Assembly (NCBI RefSeq): GCF_018524365.1
Contig: NZ_JAEKFT010000001.1
Coordinates: forward strand, 124,001 to 188,000
Length of the DNA stretch: 64,000 bases
DNA from: Denitromonas iodatirespirans
GTDB taxonomy: Bacteria > Pseudomonadota > Gammaproteobacteria > Burkholderiales > Rhodocyclaceae
Direction of reading: 5' to 3'
Shown here: piece by piece, positions 5,474 through 38,715 of the stretch
Layout of the letters: every line of letters starts with the position of its first letter
How positions within the stretch are numbered: position 1 is the stretch's first letter
The notes under the pieces: generated by a model
The model's input: only the letters and a program-made list of their open reading frames with translations
Databases searched by the model: none
Told to the model about the DNA's origin: nothing
Position numbers and translations under genes: made by a program

Positions 5474-6100
5474 TTACTCTTCGCCAGCGGCCTCGCCATT
5501 TTCTTCGCCTTCTTCGCCGACATCGGCTTCCTTGACCTGCGGCGACAGGATGGTGACCACCACCTGGTCAGCGTGACCATGGTCGACCACTTCCACGCCC
5601 TCGGGCAGCTTGAGGTCGCCTAGCGTGATCGAGTCGCCCAGGTTCATGCCGGTCAGGTCGACCTCGATGAACTCCGGCAGGTTGCGCGGCAGGGTCGAGA
5701 TCTCGACTTCGGTCAGGATGTGCGAGGCGATGCCGTGCTGGACTTTCAGGCCCGGAGAGGCCTCTTCGTTGGTGAAGTGCAGCGGCACCTTCATGGTGAT
5801 GGCCACGCCAGTCTTCACGCGCATGAAGTCCATGTGCAGCACGAGTTGCTTGTACGGGTGCCACTGCGCATCGCGCAGCACGACGCTCTCGGCCTTGCCG
5901 TCGACATCGATGTTCAGGATCGATGCGTGGAAGGCTTCCTTGTGCAGCCAGTGGTACATCTCGTTGTGGTCCAGGGTGACGGCGACGGCGTCCTGGTCCG
6001 CGCCGAAAATGATGGCGGGCACCTGGCCTGCGCGACGCAGGCGGCGGCTCGCACTCGATCCCTGCTCGGCGCGCTTGGCGGCGTTGATAGTGATTTCCAT
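5474..6100 (-). CDS. rplY: 50S ribosomal protein L25 (long CTC-type form)
   Basis: 208 residues: an N-terminal 5S rRNA-binding L25 domain (about 1-92, with RRLRRAGQVPAIIFG) plus the C-terminal TL5/CTC domain (VEVDLTGMNLGDSITLGDL) and an acidic tail rich in Glu/Gly. This long form is usual outside the enterobacteria. It lies between prs and pth in the conserved order prs-rplY-pth-ychF. The 79-bp gap to prs contains two GC hairpins without a good T-tract, so read-through from prs is likely. Confidence 0.96.
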   Translation of the reverse strand: MEITINAAKRAEQGSSASRRLRRAGQVPAIIFGADQDAVAVTLDHNEMYHWLHKEAFHASILNIDVDGKAESVVLRDAQWHPYKQLVLHMDFMRVKTGVAITMKVPLHFTNEEASPGLKVQHGIASHILTEVEISTLPRNLPEFIEVDLTGMNLGDSITLGDLKLPEGVEVVDHGHADQVVVTILSPQVKEADVGEEGEENGEAAGEE

Positions 6101-6179
6101 GACTACTCCACTTGAAGACAGGCCCGTCCGCGACCAGACGGGCCGAACACCCCGAACGGCAACGCCGTCCGGGAAAAAA

Positions 6180-17786: not shown

Positions 17787-18863
17787 ATGTTTGGTTTCTT
17801 CAAAAAGTCGCCCGCCAAAGGCGACGCCTCCGTCGATACGCCGGCCCCCGCCGAGCCGGACATCGCCCACGACGTCCCCACCGAACCGGCCCCCGACGTC
17901 GTCGCACCGGCCGCCGCCGAGCCCAAGCGTTCCTGGAGCGAACGGCTCAAAGCCGGCCTGGCACGTACCCGCAAGCAGTGGGGCGGCGGCCTGGCGCATA
18001 TGTTCGGCCTGCGCAAGATCGACGAGGATCTGCTCGAAGAGCTCGAAAGCACGCTGCTGATGGCCGATTGCGGCGTCGAGGCCACCAGCCATTTGATCGA
18101 CGCGCTGCGCAAACGCTGGAAGCGCGACAAGCTCGAGACCGGCGACCAGCTGCAGGCCGTGCTGGTCGAAGAACTCACCGCCCTGCTCTCGCCGCTCGAA
18201 GCGCCGCTGACCGCCGATACCCACAAGCCCTTCATCATCATGGTGGCCGGGGTCAATGGCTCGGGCAAGACCACGTCCATCGGCAAGCTGGCGCGCTGGT
18301 ACCAGAGCCAGGGCAAGAAGGTGCTGCTGGCCGCCGGCGACACCTTCCGCGCCGCCGCGCGCGAGCAACTCATCACCTGGGGCGAGCGCAACGGGGTGGA
18401 CGTGATCGCCCAGCAAAGCGGCGATGCGGCCGCGGTGATGTTCGATGCGGTCAACGCTGCCCGTGCCCGCGGCGTCGACGTGGTGCTGGCCGACACCGCC
18501 GGCCGCCTGCCGACCCAGCTGCACCTGATGGAAGAGATCGCCAAGGTACGCCGTGTCATCACCAAGGCCGACGGCACGGCGCCGCACGAGGTGCTGCTGG
18601 TGCTCGATGCCAACATCGGCCAGAACGCGCTGGCCCAGGTCAAGGCCTTCGACGCCGCGGCCGGCGTCACCGGCCTGGTCGTCACCAAGCTCGACGGCAC
18701 CGCCAAGGGCGGCGTGCTGGCCGCGATCGCCCGCCAGTGCCCCAAGCCGCTGCGCTTCATCGGCGTGGGCGAAGGTATCGACGATCTGCGTCCCTTCCAT
18801 GCGCGGGAGTTCGTCGACGCGCTGTTCGCCAAATCCGAAACCACCAAGTCGCGCACCGAATGA
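17787..18863 (+). CDS. ftsY: Signal recognition particle receptor FtsY
   Basis: 358 residues. After a short Ala/Pro/Asp-rich acidic N-terminus comes the N domain and the SRP GTPase G domain: P-loop GVNGSGKTTSIGKLA, the DTFRAAAREQL insertion-box motif, DTAGRLPTQ and TKLDGTAKGG. FtsY docks the SRP-ribosome complex at the inner membrane. The start MFGFFKK is the conventional one; a frame open far upstream is antisense to the M16 genes. Its stop overlaps the ftsE start by 4 bp. Confidence 0.97.
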   Translation: MFGFFKKSPAKGDASVDTPAPAEPDIAHDVPTEPAPDVVAPAAAEPKRSWSERLKAGLARTRKQWGGGLAHMFGLRKIDEDLLEELESTLLMADCGVEATSHLIDALRKRWKRDKLETGDQLQAVLVEELTALLSPLEAPLTADTHKPFIIMVAGVNGSGKTTSIGKLARWYQSQGKKVLLAAGDTFRAAAREQLITWGERNGVDVIAQQSGDAAAVMFDAVNAARARGVDVVLADTAGRLPTQLHLMEEIAKVRRVITKADGTAPHEVLLVLDANIGQNALAQVKAFDAAAGVTGLVVTKLDGTAKGGVLAAIARQCPKPLRFIGVGEGIDDLRPFHAREFVDALFAKSETTKSRTE

Positions 18864-19522
18864 TCGTCTTCGAGCAGGTTTCCAAGCGCTACCCGGGCGG
18901 GCACGAGGCGCTGTCCGAGGTCAGCTTCGAGCTGCGCCATGGCGAGCTGGTGGTGCTGTCGGGCCACTCCGGCGCCGGCAAGAGCACGCTGCTCAAGATG
19001 ATCCCGGTGCTTGAGCGCCCCAGTGCCGGCCGGGTGCTGATCAACAACCAGGACGTCAGCCACCTGCAGCGCTCGGCGATTCCCTACCTGCGCCGCAGCC
19101 TCGGCCTGATGCTGCAGGACAACCGCCTGCTCTACGACCGCAACGTGTTCGACAACGTGGTGCTGCCGCTGGTGATCGCCGGCATGTCGCCCAAGGACGC
19201 CGCACGCCGCGTCCACGCCGCGCTCGAACGGGTGGGCCTGGGCGGGCGCGACCAGGAGATGCCGATCGGCCTCTCAGGCGGCGAGCAGCAGCGCGTGGCG
19301 ATCGCTCGCGCCATCGTCAAGCGGCCGTCGATCCTCATCGCCGACGAACCCACCGCCCACCTCGACGCGGCCTACGCCCATGAGATCGCCGAGCTGTTCC
19401 AGTCCTTCAAGTCGGTTGGCGTCACCGTCATCGTGTGCACCCATGACCCGGCCCTGTTCGCCGAGACCCGCCCGCGTCGCCTGGTGCTGCGCCAAGGCCG
19501 TCTGATCGAAGGGGCAGAATGA
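18860..19522 (+). CDS. ftsE: Cell division ATP-binding protein FtsE
   Basis: A 220-residue ABC ATPase of the FtsEX complex, which controls septal peptidoglycan amidases. Walker A is GHSGAGKSTLLK, the signature is LSGGEQQRVAIARAI, Walker B is ILIADEPTAHLD, and the H-loop is VCTHD. The ATG overlaps the ftsY stop (ATGA, 18860-18863). The stop TGA at 19520-19522 is part of a second ATGA that would normally start ftsX. Here a 234-bp element intervenes. Confidence 0.97.
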   Translation: MIVFEQVSKRYPGGHEALSEVSFELRHGELVVLSGHSGAGKSTLLKMIPVLERPSAGRVLINNQDVSHLQRSAIPYLRRSLGLMLQDNRLLYDRNVFDNVVLPLVIAGMSPKDAARRVHAALERVGLGGRDQEMPIGLSGGEQQRVAIARAIVKRPSILIADEPTAHLDAAYAHEIAELFQSFKSVGVTVIVCTHDPALFAETRPRRLVLRQGRLIEGAE

Positions 19523-19523
19523 T
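19519..19523 (+). repeat. Left copy of the 5-bp target duplication (ATGAT)
   Basis: ATGAT immediately left of the inserted element, identical to 19758-19762 on its right. It contains the ftsE stop. Removing the element and one copy restores a normal ftsE/ftsX ATGA overlap. The reading as a target duplication is inference. Confidence 0.65.
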
Positions 19524-19757
19524 CCTAGAAACCGCAGTTGACCGCTTCAGCGTGTTAACGAGGGGCTGCTACATGCAACAAATCCTGCCTCCGAGCCCGA
19601 CCTCCCGTCTGGTGAGAGCGCTACGCGCCCGATTGCACGCCTGGCGAGCCGCCTGGCTGCGTTGCTCCTCCTTACAGCGTGCAGGCTGTGCGTCGTCGCG
19701 CCTTGCCAGACATCTCGCCAGACGCCCACTCGGCCGCGTCCAACTACGGTCTCTAGG
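19524..19757. mobile_element. 234-bp MITE-like element inserted between ftsE and ftsX
   Basis: The element begins CCTAGAAACCGCAGTTG and ends with the inverted partner (CAACTACGGTCTCTAGG), matching at 15 of 17 positions. It is flanked by ATGAT on both sides. Inside is a short hairpin (ACAGC 19674-19678 with GCTGT 19685-19689) and an imperfect inverted region around it. No transposase is encoded. An open frame of 80 codons runs through it from ATG 19519 (inside the ftsE stop overlap) to TGA 19759-19761 (inside the ftsX start); its product would be Arg-rich and has no recognisable domain. A non-autonomous element is the simplest reading. Confidence 0.75.
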
Positions 19758-19762
19758 ATGAT
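19758..19762 (+). repeat. Right copy of the 5-bp target duplication (ATGAT)
   Basis: ATGAT immediately right of the element, identical to 19519-19523. It supplies the ftsX start codon. Confidence 0.65.
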
Positions 19763-20660
19763 GCGCGCCTGGTCCTACCAACATCGCAAGGCCATCGCCC
19801 ACGCCATGCAGCGCCTGCTGCGCCAGCCGCTGGGCACGCTGCTCTCGGCACTGGTGGTCGGCATTGCGCTGGCCCTGCCGGCCGGCGGCTTCGTGCTGGT
19901 CGACAATGCCGCCTCGCTGGCGCGCGGTGTCACCGGCAGCCCGGAGATCAGCCTGTATCTGTCGCTCGATGCCACCGAGGCCGACGTGGCCGACATCGAA
20001 TCGCGCCTGCGCGCTCAGGACGCGCTGGCCGGCGTGCAGTTCGTGCCGCGCGACGCCGCCCTCAAGCAACTGGCTGACAACGGCCTGGCGGACGTGCTCG
20101 ACGGCCTGGAGCGCAACCCGCTGCCGCATGCCTTCATCGTCACCCCGCGCCAGGAAGACCCGGCCCTGTTCGAGCGCCTGCACACCACCTTCGCCGCCTG
20201 GCCCAAGGTCGATCATGTGCAGCTCGACGCGGCCTGGGTGCAGCGCCTGCACACCCTGCTGTCGCTGGTCGAACTCGGCGTCAGCCTGCTCGCGGTGCTG
20301 CTCGGCGCGGCGCTGGTGATCATCACCTTCAACACCATCCGCCTGCAGATCCTCACCCAGCGTGCCGAGATCGACGTCACCCGCCTGCTCGGCGCCACCG
20401 ACGCTTTCATCCGCCGCCCCTTCTACTGGCTGGGCTGCCTGCAAGGCCTGCTCGGCGGCCTGGTGGCCTGGAGCGTCGTCACCCTCAGCATCGCGCTGAT
20501 GCGCCCCTCGGTCGAGGCGCTGGCCGAAGCCTACGGTGCGGTCTTCTCGCTCAACGGACCGACGCCGCCGCAAGTGCTCGCCCTGCTGGTGGTGGCCATC
20601 GCGCTGGGCTGGCTGGGCACGGCGCTGTCGGTACGGCGGCATCTGCGCGAGAGCCAATAA
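19758..20660 (+). CDS. ftsX: Cell division protein FtsX (permease-like)
   Basis: 300 residues from ATG 19758, which starts MMRAWSYQHRKAIAHAMQRLLRQPLGTLL. FtsX topology is clear: one TM (about residues 25-45), a periplasmic ECD-like segment (about 50-165, ISLYLSLDATEADVADIE), then three TMs, with FNTIRLQILTQRAEIDVTRLLGA between the second and third. FtsX transmits FtsE ATPase cycles to periplasmic EnvC/amidases. A second ATG follows at 19761. An upstream in-frame extension lies within the inserted element and is not FtsX-like. Translation may be coupled through the 80-codon frame that ends on its start codon. Confidence 0.94.
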   Translation: MMRAWSYQHRKAIAHAMQRLLRQPLGTLLSALVVGIALALPAGGFVLVDNAASLARGVTGSPEISLYLSLDATEADVADIESRLRAQDALAGVQFVPRDAALKQLADNGLADVLDGLERNPLPHAFIVTPRQEDPALFERLHTTFAAWPKVDHVQLDAAWVQRLHTLLSLVELGVSLLAVLLGAALVIITFNTIRLQILTQRAEIDVTRLLGATDAFIRRPFYWLGCLQGLLGGLVAWSVVTLSIALMRPSVEALAEAYGAVFSLNGPTPPQVLALLVVAIALGWLGTALSVRRHLRESQ

Positions 20661-38302: not shown

Positions 38303-38715
38303 GGTCGAACGCAGGGATCATCAACACATCGGGGCGCCAGCTTAACCCGGAAATTTCATCGGGGCGCGGATGGATGGGCGAGCAGTGGGCAATGCAGTTC
38401 GGTCGCGAACGACGAAGACAAGGCCGGGGGCCTTGGTGAGGAGGAGCGGCCGAAATGCGCGGCCAATGCACGCACAGCCACCGCGCAGGCCCGACGAGCC
38501 AAAGTGGCTCTGGCGTCGGCTGCGGCAAAGCCGCGCGGGTATTGACGCTGCCGGCAGAAAGGGGCCGGCCTGGTGAAATATCCGGGTTAGCCCGCCCGGG
38601 GCCTCGGCGGCGCAGCGGTGGTGACGGCCGGCAGCGCAAGAACGCTTACGTTTTCGGGCTGGTCGCCCGGCCCGCCGCCGACTAGCTTGAAATAACCCCA
38701 CGCAGGAGATCAAGC
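38303..38715. other. Gene-free interval
   Basis: 413 bp between the dnaJ-like gene and the small secreted protein. No open frame shows protein-like character, no tRNA or repeat is visible and there is no convincing hairpin. It probably holds the two divergent promoters. An AGGAG ribosome site lies directly before 38716. Confidence 0.6.

Follow-up and report, generated by a model that had tools for sequence, protein, structure and literature searches.

A 234-bp MITE in the start-stop overlap of ftsE and ftsX, and the near one-way orientation of its repeat family at gene boundaries

An insertion between two coupled essential genes is expected to be costly, and ftsX is essential, as are ftsL and dapB. 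How, then, can the junction between ftsE and ftsX of Denitromonas iodatirespirans carry a mobile element? We analysed a stretch of 64,000 nucleotides (contig NZ_JAEKFT010000001.1, positions 124,001 to 188,000), which is called the window here and whose coordinates are used throughout. The junction has the following features:

18860-19522, plus strand: ftsE (Pfam ABC_tran, 1.4e-35), ending with TGA inside the left ATGAT
19519-19523, no strand: left copy of the 5-bp target duplication ATGAT, with the ftsE stop and the start of the element frame; a single ATGAT at the empty site of five same-genus genomes
19519-19761, plus strand: 80-codon frame with an ATGA overlap with ftsE and another with ftsX; a conserved peptide was not seen
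19524-19757, plus strand: 234-bp MITE, putatively of IS1380 type, in canonical (sense) orientation, recognised by its ends, copies and target duplications
19524-19540, plus strand: left terminal inverted repeat CCTAGAAACCGCAGTTG (sequence reading, pattern scan)
19622-19740, minus strand: conserved hairpin core, minus-strand fold (model R1, 110.8 bits)
19741-19757, minus strand: right terminal inverted repeat, 15/17 to the left one (sequence reading, pattern scan)
19758-19762, no strand: right ATGAT copy, with the element-frame stop and the ftsX start
19758-20660, plus strand: ftsX (Pfam FtsX_ECD, 2e-13; FtsX, 2.6e-11)

Direct reading of the sequence yielded ATGAT at 19519-19523 and again at 19758-19762, with 234 bp between the two copies. 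Of 17 positions, 15 are identical between the left end CCTAGAAACCGCAGTTG and the reverse complement of the right end, CCTAGAGACCGTAGTTG. The TGA of ftsE (19520-19522) lies inside the left ATGAT, the ATG of ftsX (19758-19760) is followed by a second ATG of the same frame at 19761, and the frame 19519-19761 (80 codons plus TGA) starts in the left ATGAT and stops in the right one. When the window was scanned for the terminal pattern with up to three mismatches, only these two places were found; 0.31 were expected, and two matches were reached in 3 of 100 shuffles. The segment is 234 bp long, has inverted ends, leaves no room for a transposase and contains an 80-aa frame without Pfam match. Thus, 19524-19757 is a non-autonomous transposon (MITE) in the start-stop overlap of ftsE and ftsX. 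The earlier note on this DNA had placed a MITE-like insertion exactly there; each of its coordinates was correct, and the ends, the ATGAT duplication, the family copies and the empty site in relatives bear the claim out. At 18860-18863, the start of ftsE overlaps the stop of the upstream frame (ATGA, in ATGATC), which is the same kind of site but unoccupied.

The same note had proposed to search for further copies with 5-bp duplications, and it would have given up its claim if there were none or if an ordinary conserved gene occupied the locus. Here, we found about a dozen full or interrupted copies in the own genome, and matches at E<=1e-10 in 5 of 10 genomes of the genus and in 40 of 297 genomes of the family. 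A pattern scan of named genomes yielded at least 116 stretches, the loci being a sample of those present. The 80 matches listed, counted by hand, carry 64 betaproteobacterial names (Thiobacillus, Polaromonas, Rhodoferax, Acidovorax, Denitromonas and others), six gammaproteobacterial ones (including Halochromatium and Paraglaciecola) and ten unspecific ones. The exact left end is rare and was present in 8 of 300 genomes drawn from the order. Before counting, elements were excluded if their ends exceeded the permitted number of mismatches or if the flank was shorter than 30 bases. Among the 124 paired-end elements first collected (modal length 234), the 5-bp flanks were identical in 69 and inverted in two; when the set was widened and orthologous sites were removed, 160 insertions were obtained, 91 with identical and three with inverted flanks. 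The commonest targets were TTGAA, ATGAT, ATAAT, TTCAA, ATCAT and ATTAT, which conform to WTNAW. These data place the element in the window in a large family of repeats that is mainly betaproteobacterial and has 5-bp WTNAW duplications. Searches of open-licence literature gave no description of this MITE family. Several Denitromonas copies (L004, L008, L010, L011, L047) are 308-312 bp long, and in two of them (L010, L011) the interior contains, at corresponding positions, similar GC-rich sequences of about 78 bp, which may represent a second repeat that entered the first. At another locus (L076, about 5845-6160), two ends of the family meet at a single ATTAT, which looks as though a copy had landed in the duplication of another.

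A comparison with the junctions of relatives had also been suggested. FtsE was matched in eight of the ten genus genomes at the threshold used, and six junctions besides the own one were read, with one locus (L275) left out. The element was absent from all six. Five of them read GAATGATG and one reads GAATAATG (ATGATG in the five, TAATG in the one). In the closest relative, G009, the FtsE of which is 98% identical, the sequence ..GGGGCCGAATGATGCGCGCCTGG.. corresponds to the predicted uninterrupted joint. In a wider sample of the family, FtsE was matched in 28 of 61 genomes; 26 other junctions were without the element, one of these (L243) being counted among the six same-genus junctions as well, and one was masked. 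Since the site is empty in the relatives read, the insertion is recent and, as far as sampled, private to its own lineage. With abundant copies elsewhere and an empty site in these relatives, neither ground for giving up the claim was found.

IS1380-family elements and the MITEs are alike in their CCTA.. ends and 5-bp duplications, and the IS1380 family as a whole has such ends and duplications of 4-5 bp. A transposase matching PF13701 was found neither in the own genome nor in 10 of the 18 copy-bearing genomes searched. However, on a Polaromonas plasmid (L230), a complete element with TTAAA on both sides adjoins a copy of the family. Its ends are CCTATTTTCGGCAGTT and CCTAGAAACGGCAGTT, and its 510-residue protein matches PF13701 at 1.5e-24; against the IS1380 NCBIfam model it scored 155.5, which is below the model cut-off of 180. 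Relatives of this protein were present in 7 of 399 genomes of the order. Two further loci (L238, L240) have the same kind of ends, with flanks that differ at one position each (TTCAA/TTCAT and TTTAT/TTTAA); the CCTA.. ends of the three elements read CCTATTTTCGGCAGTT, CCTAGAAACGGCAGTT, CCTATTTCCGGCAGTT or CCTAAATCCGGCAGTT. A fourth locus (L232) has a matching left end at ATGAT and a right flank without match. The pair of ends of the MITE itself was not found at the IS1380 loci scanned (30 loci of the family; 17 new and three repeated), nor was an autonomous element with ends identical to those of the MITE among the loci inspected. In contrast to the IS1380 elements found, the MITE in the window has no transposase, and its interior is a conserved hairpin rather than a visible deletion derivative of them. 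From the likeness of ends and duplications, we infer that an IS1380-like transposase is the most likely mobiliser.

Another candidate for the autonomous partner was rejected. A 1693-bp segment (L089:1957-3649) shares the ends of the MITE, is flanked by a TTTAA duplication and contains a transposase frame of IS1634 type, but turned out in blastn to be a family MITE interrupted by an ISAzo6-like IS1634 element. The transposase frame of this IS1634 element is short, and at six loci with relatives of its transposase, the ends of the MITE were absent.

If the element enters boundaries of genes, does its orientation matter? To call the genes on either side, we used a dicodon model that had been trained on these loci and that replaced a codon-only caller too weak for strand calls; 151 of the 160 insertions were classified, and nine had too short flanks. 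Both neighbours were co-directional with the element in 59 cases and against it in 15 (two-sided p 2.6e-7). A stop codon lay at the junction in 40 cases for genes running with the element (left junction) versus four for genes running against it (right junction), and a start codon in 45 versus nine. Upstream stop and downstream start were both at the junction in 18 insertions with the genes and in none against them, among the 151 classified non-orthologous insertions. For inclusion among these 18, a stop had to lie within 2-7 nt of the left junction and a start codon in the first six positions on the right, so that a few of them (L061 and L068, for example) are no strict 4-bp overlaps. At tandem sites away from boundaries the ratio was 14 to 11, which differs from the ratio at boundary tandem sites (45:4; Fisher p=5.7e-4). 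The fact that the orientation is one-way at boundaries, and not clearly so at other sites, speaks for a boundary bias caused by selection on expression.

When 15 of the 18 overlap junctions were scanned (L027, L061 and L146 were omitted), 29 of 30 proteins had a Pfam match in the called strand; at L335, only the downstream protein matches. Among the pairs are ftsE-ftsX, mraW-ftsL, bamE-dapB, azlC-azlD, a response regulator with a RisS-like kinase, two transport permeases, an RsmB/F methyltransferase with an MscS-type channel, two glycosyltransferases, and a heavy-metal ATPase with a MerR regulator. The mraW-ftsL copy (L186:482-1909), which comes from another genus, sits in gene orientation at the stop-start joint of a second division operon. 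Near one-way insertions before ftsX, ftsL, dapB and other genes represent natural experiments on the passage of ribosomes over a structured spacer of 234 nt.

Our preferred reading, to which we assign a probability of about 0.6, is that an IS1380-type MITE is tolerated in overlaps in one orientation and that ribosomes reach the next start by reinitiation. An IS1380-like transposase would move the MITE and duplicate a 5-bp palindromic target, WTNAW; ATGAT is such a target and can be supplied by a 4-bp start-stop overlap. Because the insertion duplicates ATGAT, the upstream gene keeps its TGA and the downstream gene its ATG, now 234 bp away. Ribosomes ending the upstream gene might start again at the left ATG, traverse the element in one short frame or a few, and so be passed on to the ATG of the downstream gene. 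A copy would survive mainly when it lies in the direction of the operon, since ribosomes could then relay to the downstream gene. With the element reversed, the minus strand, which is predicted to fold more stably and contains a strong Shine-Dalgarno-like motif, would be part of the mRNA, and the insertion would be polar.

To follow such a relay through the copies, we simulated a walk with reinitiation within 12 nt of each stop and an idealised ATGAT at both ends. The downstream start was reached in 17 of the 18 overlap copies when ATG, GTG and TTG were allowed and in 15 with ATG only. By its sequence, the right end (..CTAGG+ATGA) is indifferent to frame: one frame meets TAG one base before the ATG, another the TGA of ATGA, and the third runs into the gene in frame. 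With the idealised flanks, 12 of 18 overlap copies ended at the TGA of ATGA. The ATG-only chain at 12 nt was completed in 15/18 overlap copies versus 74/133 others (one-sided p=0.02), and in the same 18 read antisense it was completed in seven (shuffles 0.27). With a 6-nt window and ATG only, the figures were 13/18 and 48/133 (p=0.004). Over nine settings (uncorrected, one-sided), this enrichment had p<0.05 in three, p=0.08 in one and p>0.1 in five. When GTG or TTG was counted in the 12-nt window, sense and antisense were similar (16 vs 15 and 17 vs 15 of 18), and over all 117 copies (ATG and GTG) the chain passed in 0.78 sense and 0.79 antisense. Since the antisense strand is about as passable with GTG or TTG, open frames alone do not explain the orientation bias. 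The suggestion of the earlier note that the repeat acts as a translational adaptor is thus borne out indirectly and for the family, in that insertions at stops and starts lie mostly in gene direction and most overlap copies allow a reinitiation chain, whereas an enrichment over other copies appears in only three of the nine settings. The relay is the mechanism that we consider most likely, with an enrichment that depends on the settings.

The orientation bias might also arise from what the reversed element does. The consensus fold pairs the ends of the element and a long inner stem (58-72 consensus pairs). In 58 pairs found from both strands (64 copies), plus-strand A-C, which is G-U on the minus strand, occurred 242 times versus 50 times for plus-strand G-U. 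When 24 diverse minus-strand cores were aligned, 26 of 36 pairs had compensatory changes, and three pairs were G-U in more than half of the sequences. Moreover, in 114 of 117 copies the more stable strand was the minus strand (mean -130 vs -109 kcal/mol). From the G-U pairs, the covariation and the greater minus-strand stability, it appears that the fold is under selection in the strand opposite to the operon mRNA, be it as RNA or perhaps as single-stranded DNA. The mean best Shine-Dalgarno-like energy was -10.0 kcal/mol for the minus and -6.3 kcal/mol for the plus strand. A reversed copy would put the stable hairpin and the AAGGAGGAG motif into the mRNA, where they could trap ribosomes or end transcription; the forward orientation would then be merely less harmful and the downstream gene initiated independently. 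The stability and energy differences are in line with such purely negative selection, which is compatible with a relay. On the other hand, the forward strand itself is very stable, and the reverse orientation is tolerated at 11 of 25 non-boundary tandem sites, though these may lie in transcripts too. Polarity of the reverse strand may contribute to the bias or be its whole cause; as a complete explanation, we regard negative selection as possible but doubtful.

Alternatively, the element may be a plain MITE without translational role. In this case, ATGAT would be among its targets by chance, the duplication would restore both codons, ftsX would be translated from the right end or weakly, and the bias would reflect a target-strand preference of the transposase. 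A purine stood at the target centre in 27 of 32 cases at boundaries and, away from them, in 36 of 54 (36:18, p=0.02); since the centre is purine-biased away from boundaries too, a weak intrinsic preference may exist. The lack of clear coding selection and the dependence of the relay enrichment on settings fit this explanation as well. However, even under an assumed intrinsic preference of 2:1, the 40/44 and 18/18 cases stay unlikely (1.9e-4 and 6.8e-4), and the difference between boundary and other tandem sites given above speaks against this account. In addition, whichever way the element lies, the 17 nt immediately before the downstream start are almost the same terminal repeat, and the end alone is therefore unlikely to explain the orientation difference. 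Taken together, we consider a plain MITE an improbable account of the boundary insertions.

Finally, the 80-codon frame might encode a functional Arg-rich peptide acting with FtsE and FtsX, as had been proposed. It is open end to end, and one copy in another genus (L182) also has a single through-frame of 80 codons; but of the 37 copies with an upstream stop at the junction, only 7 can be read from the left start across the whole element in a single frame, the frame has no Pfam match, the insertion is absent from the close relatives read, and two codon-position tests did not support a conserved peptide, so that we regard this idea as very improbable and found nothing to indicate that the exact frame matters. 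In the first test (117 copies, related pairs), the diversity at the three codon positions was 0.112/0.107/0.143 in the right and 0.218/0.253/0.256 in the left part, which amounts to a small third-position excess in one part; in the second (64 diverse copies), the changes had no significant codon phase (permutation p 0.19-0.82).

The preferred reading of an element crossed by reinitiating ribosomes has a counterpart in the mycobacterial interspersed repetitive units (MIRUs), which are not known to have inverted repeats or dyad symmetry and are oriented with the neighbouring genes. The present family has inverted ends (15/17) and dyad symmetry (58-72 consensus pairs). In one account, start codons are named as the insertion sites of MIRUs, an internal frame of which becomes coupled to the gene with a spacing of -4 nt, probably at little cost for expression (PMC12548453). 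Judged by its sequence, the copy in the window has this -4 nt arrangement on both sides; it differs in its host phylum and in its classical inverted ends, its 5-bp duplication and its long hairpin with covariation. The MIRU idea is the closest published one, and by the arrangement described the MITE family would work alike while being built differently, so that a proposal made for mycobacterial repeats may be extended to a classical inverted-repeat transposon in other bacteria. Another MITE, Chunjie of Geobacter uraniireducens, reportedly leaves the operon structure undisturbed, according to the title of the original paper. A review describes it as a 235-bp MITE in a phosphate-uptake operon that disrupts one operon copy (PMC10969869), and by this description it resembles the MITE in the window in length and operon location. 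QMITE1 and QMITE2 of Coxiella and the Correia elements are described as MITEs with very stable hairpin RNA, some of them transcribed and one contributing a C-terminus; the passages on them mention neither start-stop targeting nor an orientation rule (PMC5896051, PMC10969869). Rickettsia palindromic elements are mobile repeats that tolerate translation (PMC10969869); as described there, they fuse in frame inside proteins, whereas the MITE in the window leaves the genes intact and separated.

The hairpin core is not confined to this family. At E<=1e-5, the core model R1 had matches in 25 of the 190 class genomes searched, the own genome included; this was the only search that covered non-named genomes outside the order. 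R1 also recognises repeats whose ends are unrelated, and the own genome has six of these. A structured core thus recurs in MITE-like repeats with different ends, and no Rfam match was obtained in the searches made: the window segment 19300-20000 gave six rows at E<=10, all far below the gathering scores (best mir-431, 26.1 of 70 bits), and 12 further loci gave one tRNA only, which is not on an element. HEARO RNAs land near ATGA, and a search of the open-licence literature for a comparison with them yielded nothing useful. A more far-reaching version of the preferred reading, which we put forward tentatively and hold to be rather unlikely in full, is a mobile ribosome relay: the family would have evolved ends and a hairpin core that enter the overlaps of operons, even essential ones, one-way without breaking the translational coupling. 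The core would be a transferable structured module, common to several MITE families with unrelated ends and selected as RNA of the strand opposite to the operon. MITE-like repeats with different inverted ends contain the core at the own-genome loci L388-L393 and at L371, L373, L374, L376 and L377; they score 41-67 bits as compared with 110.8 for the copy in the window. Two opposed R1 matches are present in six of them (L388, L390-L393, L377), and CTAG stands on both sides of three (L391, L376, L373). In the window itself, 38363-38487 gives a weak R1 match (20.4 bits, E 0.011) with a GAGGAGGAGCGGCC motif.
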